NCBI GenBank assembly: GCA_018648225.1
Contig: JABGRQ010000104.1
Coordinates: forward strand, 1-46,559
Reading direction: 5' to 3'
Origin: Chloroflexota bacterium
Lineage (GTDB): Bacteria > Chloroflexota > Anaerolineae > Anaerolineales > UBA11858
DNA length: 46,559 nucleotides
Shown here: positions 3,477 to 10,857 of the stretch, one piece after another
How the letters are laid out: each line of letters opens with the position of its first letter
Position numbering within the stretch: position 1 is the stretch's first letter
Notes under the pieces: generated by a model
Databases searched by the model: none
Seen by the model: the letters and a program-made list of their open reading frames with translations, nothing else
Told to the model about the DNA's origin: nothing
Made by a program: the position numbers and the translations under genes

Positions 3477-4097
3477 ATGCCAACTATTTTACTGATTCGC
3501 CACGCTGAAAATGAATACGTCAAGAAGGGCCGCCTGGCCGGACGCCTCCCGGGTGTGCAGCTTAATAAGAAGGGGCGGCAACAAGCCCAGGCATTGGCCG
3601 AGACCCTCAAGGATGCGCCGATTAAAGCCATCTACGTCAGCCCGCTGGAGCGCACGCTGGAGACTGCCGCGCCTATCGCGGCCGCCCTCAACCTAGACGT
3701 GATCCCAAATTCGGGTTTGCTGGAAATTGACTTTGGCGACTGGCAAGATAAAACGCTCAAGGAATTGCGCCGTCGAAAATTATGGCGTACCGTTCAGCAA
3801 GCCCCCTCACGCATGTGTTTCCCCGGCGGGGAGAGTTTTGCCGCCGCGCAGGCGCGAATTATAACTGCCCTCGAAGCGCTCTGTCAGAAACATAGCCCCA
3901 AAGAAATGCTTATTTGCGTTTCGCACAGCGACAGCATCAAACTGGCCGTAGCCTACTACCTGGGGATGCATATTGACCACTTCCAACGGCTAATGATTGC
4001 GCCTGCGTCGATCACAACCCTGTTTCTTGGCGAAGGGCAGACGCGGGTTATTAATGTGAATATGGATGCAGGCCACAAGTTGCAGGCTGAACATTAA
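3477..4097 (+). CDS. Histidine phosphatase family protein (MSMEG_4193-like)
   Basis: The 206-residue protein belongs to the histidine phosphatase (phosphoglycerate mutase-like) superfamily. It has the phosphohistidine motif LLIRHAEN with catalytic H9 (Ala in place of the usual Gly after it), the arginine/glutamate segment SPLERTLETA, and the second histidine in CVSHSDSIKLAVAYYLGM. The run DSIKLAVAYYLGMHIDHFQRL and the gene order point to the 'probable phosphomutase, MSMEG_4193' subfamily (TIGR03848 as I recall it). It is followed by DUF3090 and SCO1664-type genes on the same strand, the order expected for this conserved trio. The substrate is unknown. The ATG at 3477 has a -10 box eight bases away and no clear Shine-Dalgarno. 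Confidence 0.9.
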   Translation: MPTILLIRHAENEYVKKGRLAGRLPGVQLNKKGRQQAQALAETLKDAPIKAIYVSPLERTLETAAPIAAALNLDVIPNSGLLEIDFGDWQDKTLKELRRRKLWRTVQQAPSRMCFPGGESFAAAQARIITALEALCQKHSPKEMLICVSHSDSIKLAVAYYLGMHIDHFQRLMIAPASITTLFLGEGQTRVINVNMDAGHKLQAEH

Positions 4098-4129
4098 CGT
4101 AAACGTGTAACCTTCAACCCGCAAAATGG

Positions 4130-4135
4130 TATACT
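4130..4135 (+). promoter_or_regulatory. Possible -10 element before the DUF3090 gene
   Basis: TATACT occurs in the 72-base gap between the phosphatase and DUF3090 genes, 34 bases before the ATG at 4170. No good -35 is seen. It could give the last two genes of the cassette their own transcript; read-through from upstream is also possible. Confidence 0.3.
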
Positions 4136-4169
4136 TCTCAAACAAATTATTAACCCATCGGAATAAATC

Positions 4170-4751
4170 ATGCCAAACCAAGAATTTGATCTTAACCCCG
4201 TTGACCATATCACCGTAGACGCGCTTGGAGCCGCCGGACAGCGCGTTTTTTATATTCAGGCTCAAAAAGGCGCTCAAACGATCACGCTGATCGCCGAAAA
4301 ATTCCAGTTACAATCGCTCGCCATTGGTATCGAGCGCTTTTTGGCCGAAATCGCCGAGAAATTCCCTGATCTACCTGCTCCCGTAGCCGAGTTTTCTGAA
4401 ACCCAGATGCACATTCACCCGCCGGTTGACCCGCTCTGCCGCATTGCCAATATCGGGCTGGGATTTGACATTGAAGCCGATCTGGCTGTACTGGTCATCC
4501 ACGAATTGCTGCCCGAAGGCGATATCATGGAGGAAATCGAGGATGCGATCCAATCCAATGACGATACCATCGAAGGGGATGTACCCAACGTGGTGCGTCT
4601 CTGGTGCAGCCGCGATCAACTGCTGGCGCTCAGCCGCTGGAGCATCGAAGTTGCATCCCGTGGTCGGCCCATTTGCCCCCAATGCAACGAACCAATGGAG
4701 CCTGAAGGCCACTTCTGCGTCAAGAAAAACGGCGGACACGCGCGCAAATGA
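4170..4751 (+). CDS. DUF3090 family protein with C-terminal zinc ribbon
   Basis: The 193-residue protein matches what I know of DUF3090 (TIGR03847): an N-terminal domain opening NPVDHITVDALGAAGQRVFY and continuing GAQTITLIAEKFQLQSLA, and a C-terminal ribbon ICPQCNEPMEPEGHFC whose C169, C172, H181 and C183 could bind zinc. The middle part contains a conserved run around 100-130 (RIANIGLGFDIEADLAVLVI). No enzymatic motif is visible and the function is not known. The gene sits between the histidine phosphatase (72 bases upstream) and the kinase-like SCO1664 gene (36 bases downstream). The context suggests a structural or substrate-presenting partner for a phosphorylation/dephosphorylation pair; this is inference. 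Confidence 0.88.
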   Translation: MPNQEFDLNPVDHITVDALGAAGQRVFYIQAQKGAQTITLIAEKFQLQSLAIGIERFLAEIAEKFPDLPAPVAEFSETQMHIHPPVDPLCRIANIGLGFDIEADLAVLVIHELLPEGDIMEEIEDAIQSNDDTIEGDVPNVVRLWCSRDQLLALSRWSIEVASRGRPICPQCNEPMEPEGHFCVKKNGGHARK

Positions 4752-4787
4752 ATGCATGGCGAATAGCAAATCGCCATCCGTCTTCCC

Positions 4788-5504
4788 ATGCACGAGCCAA
4801 TTCTCACCGCGCTAAACTCTGGCACGTTCTCCCTCGAGGGGGAATTCATCCACGGGGCAAATTACTCCTTTCTCGTCCAGATTCAGCACCAGGGCGAAAT
4901 CACGCGCGCGGTCTACAAACCCGAGCAAGGCGAACGCCCGTTGTGGGATTTCCCCGACAATACCCTGGCGCACCGCGAAACCGCCGCTTATCTCGTCAGC
5001 CAGAGCCTCGGCTGGGAGTTAGTACCCCCCACGGTTTATCGCAGCGATGGCCCCTACGGCCCCGGCTCACTGCAATATTTCGTTCCTCACGACCCCAATT
5101 ATCACTATTTCAATCTCAGCGAAGCGCATTTTCAGTGCATGCCGCCCGTGATTCTCTTTGATCTGCTGGTCAACAATGCCGACCGTAAAGGCAGTCACCT
5201 GGTCTTTGATGCCGACGACCATCTCTGGCTGATCGACCACGGCCTCTGTTTTCATGTGGAGGACAAACTGCGCACCGTAATCTGGGATTTTGCCGGAGAG
5301 CCGGTGCCGCCTGAATTTTTGGTCGATTTACAAACCCTGAACGGGAACCTCGCGCTTGGCTCCGAGTTGGTTGCCGCACTCGCAGCGCATCTCGCCCCCG
5401 AAGAGATCGCCGCCCTGCACGCCCGCGCCGAAAGATTGCAAACTTTAGAGAATTTCCCGCATCCGCCCAACGACCGGAGAGCGTATCCATACCCGCCGTT
5501 ATAA
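4788..5504 (+). CDS. SCO1664 family protein, PI3K/HipA-like kinase fold candidate
   Basis: The 238-residue protein has the hallmarks of the SCO1664 family (TIGR03843 as I recall): VYKPEQGERPLWDFP (42-56) with a candidate ATP-binding lysine K44, AHRETAAYLVSQSLGWELVP (61-80), a catalytic-loop-like NNADRKGSHLVF (129-140) and a DFG-like IDHGLCFH (149-156). This order of lysine, N-x-D-R-K-x-x-H loop and D-H-G motif is that of phosphatidylinositol-kinase/HipA-like folds, so the protein probably binds a nucleotide and a metal. The target is unknown. It is the third gene of the cassette; the ATG at 4788 is the first plausible start after DUF3090. The gene ends directly before a palindromic repeat at 5506. 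Confidence 0.87.
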   Translation: MHEPILTALNSGTFSLEGEFIHGANYSFLVQIQHQGEITRAVYKPEQGERPLWDFPDNTLAHRETAAYLVSQSLGWELVPPTVYRSDGPYGPGSLQYFVPHDPNYHYFNLSEAHFQCMPPVILFDLLVNNADRKGSHLVFDADDHLWLIDHGLCFHVEDKLRTVIWDFAGEPVPPEFLVDLQTLNGNLALGSELVAALAAHLAPEEIAALHARAERLQTLENFPHPPNDRRAYPYPPL

Positions 5505-8991: not shown

Positions 8992-10857
8992 CTAATCGGC
9001 CCGGCAGGGGTTATCGGGATCGGGGTCGTTAGGAGGCATTCCGTCGGTGCCGGGGCCATATTCGCAGACCGCACGCCAGGGGATATAGTTGGTCGTAAAT
9101 ACATCTTCATTAATCACATCGCCGCCGCGTGTAACGGTGCGGGTTACAGTTACAGCCGCCCCCTCTACTGCCCAATCGACCTGATGAATTTCACCCGTGC
9201 CCAATTCTTCGTTTTCCTCATAGCGCGGTTCTGGTGCGTCTTGCTTGTTGGTCAGGCCGCTGGTGGACCAATCGACCGTGCGCCCATCGGAAGTAGAGTA
9301 GAACTTCCAGGTCAGATAATATTCCCCAATATACGTCTCCATTAGCAGCCAGTAACCAGTATCATTGGTGAATTTAAAATCCACCACGGGCACATAAACA
9401 GTGGCATCCAGCCCGGCCCAATCGGAATCGTGCCCGCCGCCGTAGGTCTGCTCGTAGTAGTAGACGCGGTAGGCGTGCGGATAACGTTCTACGATAGAGA
9501 AGCCGCCAAAAAACACGGTTCGGAATAGCGTGGTGCTGACCTGACACACACCACCGCCCACGCCCTTGATCGTGCGGTCGCCGAAAATAATCCAGGCTTC
9601 AGCATAGCCAGTATCCAAACTGACATCGCCCAAAATCCGAGCCATCGAAAAGGTTTCGCCGGGGGCTACCAGCAAGCCGTGGAACCGCGAAGCTGCCGTG
9701 CGGATATTTTGTTTGCGCGAGGCGCTGGAGCCATAAAAATAGGTCGTGTGTGAATTGACCAGTTCGGTAATACCCAATTCGGCAGCGGTGGCATCATCAT
9801 TGACTTGCGGGGCTTCGTAGTCCATGTCCAGGTTGATGTCGTGCTCGCCCGCCAGCACTTTACTTTGCACCGCCAAAATAGTGGCTTCAATATCCAGCGA
9901 TTGGCCCTGGGTAGCATGGGCAATCGCTTCTAGTTCGCGCGTATCATCATCAAAAATAAAGCGCGCGTTTTCGGGTCTGCGCTCCAGGCCGGGGGCAATT
10001 TGCTCTAAAAAGCTGCGCAAACGCGCTTCGTCCAGGCCAATTTGGTATTCTTCCCCCTCGGGGGTGGGTACGCGCTCGAAAACCAGCATCCCGCCCAAGT
10101 CTTCGCGGGCGAATCCCCACGGGCCGGGGCCATCTTCTCCCGCTCCGGGCATGCGCAGCGTCAACGGGGCGCTCAAAATCTGGCGGGCAATCTGCGCCTG
10201 GGCCTCCACATCCATAATCACTGGCGGGTCTTCATCCACCACCAGATCAATTTCGCCATCGATCAACGCCCGCGTCAGGGTTTCAATTTGAGCAAGATTG
10301 GCGGCGATCTCCAGCCTGCGCCCAATTTGACCGCGCTGAACAACCACATCGGCGGCCTCAACCCGCAGCGAGGCCTCAATGGTGGGTACATTAATTTGAT
10401 TGGCAATATTGGTAAGTTGATAGTGGGCGATGCGCTGATCGAAGGTCATGCGCGGCGGCAGGGTGAGGCCCTGAAACCAGCCCTGAAAACGTTCGCCCAG
10501 ACGTGTGGGCAACGGCCCTGTGCGGCCCAATTCAAAAGCCATTTGTGCATTTTCAGCGGGATCAATAAAAACGCCCAGTTCCTGGGGAGTCGCCATCCAG
10601 AGATTTTCGCCATCTCGCAGCAGGATTTGCCCGCGCTGGGGATAATCGTACGCCGCTCGTAGCTGATCGGTGGCCTCGAGGGAAGTCAACCCCGAGAGAT
10701 CAACCCAGCCCACGCGCACCCCGGGGAAGATGCGCCCCGAATAGCGCAGGCCATAACCGAGGCCGAGCAGCATCAGCGCCAGCCCAAAGAGAAACAGGCC
10801 GCCGATGAAGGCGATGATGATGCGTTGCAGGGGAGATGGGGCATTTGAGCGTTGCAT
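8992..10857 (-). CDS. VanW family protein with repeated peptidoglycan-binding-like domains
   Basis: The 621-residue protein is anchored by one N-terminal membrane segment (IIIAFIGGLFLFGLALMLLG). It has two YoaR/PG-binding-4-like repeats (around LTSLEATDQLRAAYDYP and a second near DEARLRSFLEQIAPGLE), the VanW domain (SSASRKQNIRTAASRFHGLL, APGETFSM, GGGVCQVSTTLFRTVFFGG) and a G5-like tail (EIHQVDWAVEGAAVTVTRTV). VanW proteins occur at the cell surface and are linked to wall or vancomycin-resistance loci, but their activity is not established. Starts are possible at 10884 (TTG), 10869 and 10857; I choose the ATG at 10857 because TACAAT (10873-10868) overlaps the earlier ones. It is transcribed away from the lipoprotein genes. 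Confidence 0.88.
   Translation of the reverse strand: MQRSNAPSPLQRIIIAFIGGLFLFGLALMLLGLGYGLRYSGRIFPGVRVGWVDLSGLTSLEATDQLRAAYDYPQRGQILLRDGENLWMATPQELGVFIDPAENAQMAFELGRTGPLPTRLGERFQGWFQGLTLPPRMTFDQRIAHYQLTNIANQINVPTIEASLRVEAADVVVQRGQIGRRLEIAANLAQIETLTRALIDGEIDLVVDEDPPVIMDVEAQAQIARQILSAPLTLRMPGAGEDGPGPWGFAREDLGGMLVFERVPTPEGEEYQIGLDEARLRSFLEQIAPGLERRPENARFIFDDDTRELEAIAHATQGQSLDIEATILAVQSKVLAGEHDINLDMDYEAPQVNDDATAAELGITELVNSHTTYFYGSSASRKQNIRTAASRFHGLLVAPGETFSMARILGDVSLDTGYAEAWIIFGDRTIKGVGGGVCQVSTTLFRTVFFGGFSIVERYPHAYRVYYYEQTYGGGHDSDWAGLDATVYVPVVDFKFTNDTGYWLLMETYIGEYYLTWKFYSTSDGRTVDWSTSGLTNKQDAPEPRYEENEELGTGEIHQVDWAVEGAAVTVTRTVTRGGDVINEDVFTTNYIPWRAVCEYGPGTDGMPPNDPDPDNPCRAD

Follow-up and report, generated by a model that had tools for sequence, protein, structure and literature searches.

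Organization of the locus

The window analysed here is a 46,559-nucleotide stretch of DNA from a Chloroflexota bacterium (Anaerolineales, UBA11858; assembly GCA_018648225.1, contig JABGRQ010000104.1), and its positions 3477 to 5504 comprise three genes encoding a histidine phosphatase (P), a DUF3090 protein (D) and a kinase-like protein (K), a trio read below as a candidate reversible-phosphorylation module. The genes lie on one strand in the order P, D, K, separated by intergenic gaps of 72 nt (P-D) and 36 nt (D-K), and the motifs pointed out by a previous, sequence-only reading of this DNA are all there; P carries RHA, D carries C-x-x-C...H-x-C, and K carries YKP, N-A-D-R-K-G-S-H and D-H-G (Table 1). 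All three families are already known as families. Against the curated NCBIfam models, K scores 264.5 bits with TIGR03843 (cut-off 172.4), D scores 127.3 bits with TIGR03847 (cut-off 117.25), and P passes narrowly with TIGR03848 at 208.8 bits (cut-off 203.85). The Pfam models give 170.8 bits for P with PF00300, 133 bits for D with PF11290 (cut-off 27) and a marginal pass for K with PF00454 (PI3_PI4_kinase; 27.3 bits, gathering cut-off 27.1), while HipA_2 reaches 14.3 bits with K, under its cut-off of 27. PADLOC returns a single weak match for K and none for P or D, and a promoter and terminator scan of the locus is uninformative.

Table 1. Genes and features of the trio in the window, and loci at which D is paired with a dual-specificity/protein tyrosine phosphatase (DSP/PTP) gene
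Feature	Position	Strand	Basis
P: histidine phosphatase (branch 1), MSMEG_4193/TIGR03848 family, 206 aa	3477..4097	+	TIGR03848 and PF00300 scores; catalytic residues
Arg8-His9 of P, catalytic RH motif	3498..3503	+	71/73 rows; other two gapped
D: DUF3090/TIGR03847 protein, 193 aa	4170..4751	+	Family scores; PUR-like fold of two repeats predicted, with a zinc ribbon at the C terminus
Zinc-ribbon-like C-x-x-C...H-x-C segment of D (Cys169 to Cys183), CPQCNEPMEPEGHFC	4674..4718	+	Sequence
K: SCO1664/TIGR03843 kinase-like protein, 238 aa	4788..5504	+	Family score, predicted model, structure matches
Lys44 of K (YKP), predicted nucleotide-binding lysine	4917..4919	+	134/134 sequences
Predicted catalytic loop of K, NNADRKGSH	5172..5198	+	Asp132 (catalytic) 134/134, His137 132/134
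DHG of K (Asp150), predicted metal-binding aspartate, DFG-like	5235..5243	+	Asp150 134/134
D-DSP pair loci	L037 7113-7712; L038 6095-6640; L039 3663-4172; L185 3410-3973; L186 2429-2953; L043 3598-4158		

The kinase-like protein

The predicted model of K, built from a 78-row alignment, displays a mean predicted local distance difference test score (pLDDT) of 96.3; the K alignment (A3) leaves out three of the 80 K loci for partial domains (L144, L168 and L170). Compared with solved structures, the model is closest to the type II phosphatidylinositol 4-kinases (PI4KII), with a best Z score of 19.2 and a root-mean-square deviation (rmsd) of 3.6 over 224 residues; nine PI4KII entries lead the matches, followed by Fam20 (Z 15) and CtkA (Z 14), and HipA is matched at Z 10.4 over 197 residues. 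The PI4KII comparison reaches E 2e-7 in Foldseek, and a profile search gives weak matches to FAM20A (E 2e-4) and PI4KII-beta (E 8e-4); the sequences of K and of D, each searched alone against solved structures, return noise only.

Residues Lys44, Glu64, Asp132 and Asp150 of K are each invariant among 134 distinct sequences, and the position occupied by Asn in the catalytic loop of many kinases is held by a histidine, His137, in 132 of them. Since these catalytic residues are intact, K is probably active, and residues and predicted fold together suggest a functional kinase on the PI4KII/Fam20 side of the fold. The kinase likeness first proposed from short motifs is borne out by a predicted kinase fold (pLDDT 96) with a complete set of catalytic residues.

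The DUF3090 protein

The model of D displays a mean pLDDT of 91.2, the underlying alignment (A4) omitting one of 78 D loci (L111, incomplete), and comprises four strands and a helix, then a strand-strand-(helix)-strand-helix arrangement, with the ribbon last. Five PUR-domain entries lead the fold comparison (Z 8.7 to 9.4), the best being PURA repeats I-II (Z 9.4, rmsd 3.0 over 110 residues), and lower matches include a Synechococcus protein (Z 6.6) and Whirly (Z 5.4); the Foldseek match to PUR is non-significant (E 0.03). A PUR repeat consists of four strands and a helix, the domain being formed by two repeats, as described in the available parts of PMC3764826 and PMC2954813. When the two halves of D are compared with each other, the local profile mode gives a probability of 78% and a P value of 1.9e-5 (single comparison) and the global mode a probability of 3.6%; D is probably internally duplicated. 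The PUR profile scores 12.85 with D repeat 1. None of 38 background windows reaches this value (highest 11.3), but scores among 120 column-shuffled controls rise to 16.8, so we make no claim of homology to PUR at the sequence level. Pfam PurA does not match D, and the D profile finds one weak, unrelated match only. Moreover, D is acidic, with an isoelectric point (pI) of 4.6 in the window and a median of 4.97 (136 of 141 sequences below 6), in contrast to the basic PURA repeat (pI 9.7). Acidic and devoid of a profile link to PUR, D is accordingly regarded as PUR-like in shape only, and nucleic acid binding is not inferred.

The zinc ribbon noticed earlier at the end of D is present in the window protein but proves dispensable, since its cysteines are missing in 15 of 78 aligned rows, in three of which the segment is retained with substitutions. 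A Brevefilum-like lineage (L095 6781-7320, L104 9426-9968 and L120 6042-6581) carries W, T, E and S in place of the ribbon Cys and His residues. The conserved positions of D are G20, G23, R25, F27, E43, G165-R166 and N187. When D from K-bearing genomes is aligned (129 sequences), every Ser/Thr/Tyr column shows exceptions; the most conserved one is T/S in 116, and four of the 12 K-less D sequences carry S there. With no such column conserved throughout, D resembles an adaptor and not a substrate.

The histidine phosphatase and the partners of D

The RH motif of P has a catalytic role throughout the histidine phosphatase superfamily, and across 73 P sequences the catalytic Arg, His, Arg, Glu and His hardly vary. 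The next-best NCBIfam models of P include alpha-ribazole phosphatase and phosphoserine phosphatase, and the fourth-best match is a bifunctional RNase H/acid phosphatase model. Most P proteins are non-acidic (54 of 73 at pI >= 6), which, taken with the mostly acidic D, is compatible with a P-D complex.

Two loci encode P followed by D in a single open reading frame (ORF), with both Pfam domains above cut-off: L157 (8702-9883, 393 aa) and L149 (8236-9354, 373 aa), the fused D of the latter being degenerate and the fusion being followed by a separate, ribbon-less D (9356-9838) and then by K. In the K-less Chloroflexota family f17, a DSP/PTP-type phosphatase gene, unrelated to P, lies directly downstream of D on the same strand in all five D genomes, at a spacing of tens of bases, and one further D-DSP pair involves a second D copy in genome G065. 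The DSP/PTP family was confirmed for three of the six pairs, the other three being recognized through tblastn. The pair in G065 (L043) stands on a short contig, C87, that may be contamination; its D is f17-like and comes in addition to the normal K and D of G065. In the other K-less families no recognisable phosphatase adjoins D in the loci as read by eye. D is placed as a phosphatase partner mainly because of the P-D fusions and the f17 pairs, and the suggestion that it serves as an adaptor fits both of these as well as its lack of an invariant Ser/Thr/Tyr.

In Mycobacterium, Rv2135c is presumably the orthologue of P, and we take Rv2134c and MSMEG_4192 to be D genes. Rv2135c is a tetrameric acid phosphatase without phosphoglycerate mutase activity; it hydrolyses p-nitrophenyl phosphate at 0.23 umol/min/mg, shows no activity on ADP, 3-phosphoglycerate or glucose 6-phosphate, and acts weakly on the metabolites tried, according to the available part of PMC3866925. 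A transposon screen in bacille Calmette-Guérin (BCG), as excerpted from PMC11329110, reports rifampicin sensitization of Rv2134c (log2 change -1.42), rnhC (-1.41) and uvrA mutants, and MSMEG_4192 is listed, without a function in the passages at hand, in a ClpC1 interactome and a dibucaine transposon screen (PMC10433963, PMC10127668). The accessible text of PMC9425974 and PMC13118837 states no function for DUF3090 beyond a putative metal-binding motif. The trio is not mentioned in the portion available of an aminoacyl-tRNA-synthetase paper (PMC2922099), and the corresponding portions of PMC9758233 (Legionella kinome) and PMC11754781 add nothing on it. No functional study of K or D was found in the literature searched, whose scope left out most subscription journals, so that such a study could be missed.

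Co-occurrence and linkage in two phyla

Tool-selected samples of 201 Chloroflexota and 149 Actinomycetota genomes were searched for each family, P being counted at E <= 1e-40. In Chloroflexota, K is present in 111 genomes and D in 129, with both/K only/D only/neither at 104/7/25/65 (Fisher p = 1e-23 at genome level, ignoring relatedness) and at 37/2/5/24 when tabulated by family (p = 2e-11), which reduces the effect of kinship and does not remove it. In Actinomycetota, K and D occupy the identical 68 of 149 genomes (68/0/0/81), all of which also carry P; five further genomes display P without K or D, at scores below the P cut-off. The co-occurrence of K and D is far above chance, and the phylogenetic profile agrees with the earlier statement that the three families co-occur in these two phyla.

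Linkage follows in part. Actinomycetota K and D are neighbours in 66 of the 68 genomes, the two exceptions both lying at a contig edge, and P and D are neighbours in all 68. In Chloroflexota, K and D adjoin in 69 of the 104 genomes with both (G098 included) and are separate in 35; that these 35 genomes keep both genes though apart indicates that linkage is not required for retention, and no recurring gene partner of either was found among conserved neighbours where they lie apart. P is found in 58 of 201 Chloroflexota, including 44 of the 104 genomes with K and D, and adjoins D in 29; the curated TIGR03848 cut-off is passed in 30 of the Chloroflexota and 55 of the Actinomycetota genomes sampled. 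A further set of 80 named GTDB loci, selected by similarity to K, carries D within 1.5 kb of K on the same strand in 77 cases and P within 2.5 kb in 55. The description of the trio as one linked set is supported, with the qualification that in many Chloroflexota P is elsewhere or unrecognisable. Mostly kept or lost together in two phyla, P, D and K probably form one reversible phosphorylation switch.

Neighbouring genes

In the window, the trio is preceded by an M20 peptidase gene on the opposite strand and then by RarA (706-2112), and is followed by genes for homoserine dehydrogenase and a PF01663 phosphodiesterase-family protein. Because the gene caller gave some antisense ORFs in GC-rich loci, neighbours were kept only if backed by a family search or tblastn. 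Homoserine dehydrogenase is matched near the trio at 24 loci, all of Chloroflexota; a RarA/MgsA-type AAA+ ATPase lies within 200 nt of the trio, upstream of P, at eight Chloroflexota loci (L091, L093, L100, L103, L105, L109, L110 and L117); and a uracil-DNA glycosylase superfamily gene adjoins P at four Actinomycetota loci (L135, L136, L158 and L161) and K in four genomes of family f14 (L173-L176). These three neighbours are leads only and may be due to chance.

Mechanistic interpretation and alternative explanations

The reading we tentatively prefer, at a likelihood falling slightly short of even, is a kinase/phosphatase module with D as shared adaptor and with a substrate that is most likely protein. 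P, D and K would constitute a single cytosolic reversible-phosphorylation module comprising (i) K as a minimal kinase, placed by its predicted fold on the PI4KII/Fam20/HipA side and probably active in view of its intact residues; (ii) P as the phosphatase opposing K, a pairing to which their linkage points; and (iii) D as a non-catalytic subunit common to both, an acidic protein of PUR-like shape and probable internal duplication that would bring kinase and phosphatase to a common substrate and, judging from the fusions and gene pairs, would bind phosphatases directly. The substrate would most likely be a protein rather than inositol or mycothiol. The dedicated phosphorylation/dephosphorylation system envisaged by the sequence-only reading survives in its linked kinase-phosphatase set and in D as adaptor, and is abandoned in its guess of an inositol-like substrate.

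Several observations weigh against this interpretation. P is missing, unlinked or unrecognisable in many Chloroflexota, a looser tie than that between K and D. D occurs without K in 25 of 201 Chloroflexota genomes, belonging to five families (f17, f18, f26, f42 and f44), and K without detectable D in seven, five of them from f14 (where K is divergent, the match in G063 being to a generic relative only) and two merely 80-83% complete; relaxed thresholds reveal no divergent D next to K in these genomes. The control genome of Corynebacterium glutamicum matches K and P, and not DUF3090. Given these exceptions, the K-D link is strong and not absolute. As to the fusions, a Met at the start of D in L157 means that a stop codon may have been lost in this metagenome-assembled genome, and the L149 locus carries a second D, one of its D copies being degenerate. 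Finally, protein as the substrate class is reached by elimination.

Among the alternatives, K and P could act on a small metabolite, either as metabolite kinase and phosphatase or as a damage-repair pair, with D as regulator or carrier. Histidine phosphatases frequently act on metabolites, the alpha-ribazole and phosphoserine phosphatase models stand among those nearest to P, and a metabolic gene, homoserine dehydrogenase, lies next to the trio in many Chloroflexota (24 loci). These homoserine dehydrogenase matches are, however, confined to Chloroflexota loci, no pathway gene recurs in both phyla among the clustered loci, and Rv2135c acts weakly on metabolites, with a mM Michaelis constant in the part of PMC3866925 available; the proposal appears unlikely. 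That D is itself the substrate, phosphorylated by K and dephosphorylated by P or by the f17 phosphatase, would make sense of D as the common partner of all three enzymes; it is rendered distinctly improbable by the absence of an invariant Ser/Thr/Tyr column in 129 D sequences (T/S in 116 at best), by S at this column in four of 12 K-less D sequences, and by the persistence of D without K in 25 genomes. A still slimmer chance attaches to a nucleic acid or nucleoprotein target, in which the PUR-like fold and ribbon of D would bind single-stranded DNA or RNA, and K and P would modify the ligand or a partner. PURA repeats I-II as best fold match, at the head of five PUR entries, the uracil-DNA glycosylase (four plus four loci) and RarA (eight loci) neighbours, the RNase H/acid phosphatase model in fourth place for P, and the shared rifampicin sensitization of BCG mutants in the presumed D gene Rv2134c, rnhC and uvrA (excerpts of PMC11329110) all speak for it; set against them are the acidity of D (median pI 4.97, versus 9.7 for the PURA repeat), a PUR profile score not above the column-shuffled controls, ribbon cysteines lost in 15 of 78 D rows, and neighbours that are possibly there by chance.

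A link to mycothiol or inositol is the least probable of these explanations and can be given very little credence. It derives from a review that, in the section available, describes SCO1664 as invariably close to mshC (PMC4255298), and from the resemblance of the predicted K fold to phosphoinositide kinases. MshC scores above cut-off in 12 of 149 Actinomycetota, all of them trio genomes, and in 11 of the 12 its gene shares a strand with K at a distance of less than 5 kb; 17 more Actinomycetota, 16 with the trio, display intermediate MshC-like matches in an analyst-set band of 340-450 bits. Nevertheless, 40 of the 68 Actinomycetota trio genomes lack both an MshC above cut-off and an intermediate match, which upholds the earlier view that the role is not mycothiol-specific. 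ORF reading of the window revealed no MshC, a reading not accompanied by an MshC search in Chloroflexota. Of the 201 Chloroflexota, eight carry inositol-phosphate synthase (PF07994); three of the eight belong to the 111 genomes with K, and the genome containing the window lacks the enzyme, a distribution that tells against an inositol-like substrate. From these MshC and synthase counts, a mycothiol-specific or inositol-based role is unlikely, although the use of scavenged inositol is conceivable.

Conservation of the three families extends across Chloroflexota and through much of Actinomycetota, to which Mycobacterium and Streptomyces belong. The present analysis adds the kinase class of K, the acidity of a D that is PUR-like and can do without its ribbon, the fusions of D with one phosphatase and its pairing with another, and counts by which the trio is set apart from mycothiol and inositol. 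The question becomes testable, with a kinase fold and residues for mutation named and a D-P complex indicated, and two natural experiments are available, namely the P-D fusions and a D accompanied by a different phosphatase and no kinase. It is a doubtful possibility that the trio represents another type of protein-phosphorylation switch in bacteria, in addition to Hanks kinases and HipA toxins, combining a PI4KII/Fam20-type kinase and a phosphatase with an acidic PUR-like adaptor able to exist without the kinase and to swap phosphatases, from a histidine phosphatase in most lineages to a dual-specificity-type enzyme in another.

Comparison with known systems

The closest relative of the window trio is the Actinomycetota SCO1664/DUF3090/MSMEG_4193 cluster (TIGR03843, TIGR03847 and TIGR03848), with which it shares the families, the P-D-K order and the single strand, differing in the absence of an adjoining mshC on ORF reading and in its flanking genes, which here are those for homoserine dehydrogenase and the PF01663 protein on one side and for the M20 peptidase and RarA on the other. 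PI4KII provides the closest solved fold to K (Z 19.2) and a shared weak profile match; nevertheless, K differs from these kinases in its identity of at most 20%, its His137 in place of the loop Asn and its length of 238 aa. The CCPCC-type cysteine cluster, a palmitoylation motif of PI4KII, is absent from K, which has two separate cysteines only, and most K hosts, in contrast with PI4KII, lack inositol-phosphate synthase. K shares with FAM20A an E-x-A-A...VPPT..R stretch, beside the fold likeness to Fam20 (Z 15) and CtkA (Z 14). It differs from the secretory-pathway Fam20 kinases and bacterial CtkA in displaying no secretion signal discernible by eye (no program used) and in the place of its gene within a phosphatase/DUF3090 set. 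With HipA, K has in common the kinase fold (Z 10.4), but its HipA_2 score is below cut-off, and the gene preceding K is D, whereas a HipA toxin would have a HipB-like antitoxin. D, in turn, would resemble the PUR-domain proteins PURA and Borrelia Bpur in its predicted two four-strand-plus-helix-like repeats within one chain, and differs from them in being acidic, in having no significant PUR profile match, and in carrying an additional helix and a zinc ribbon.

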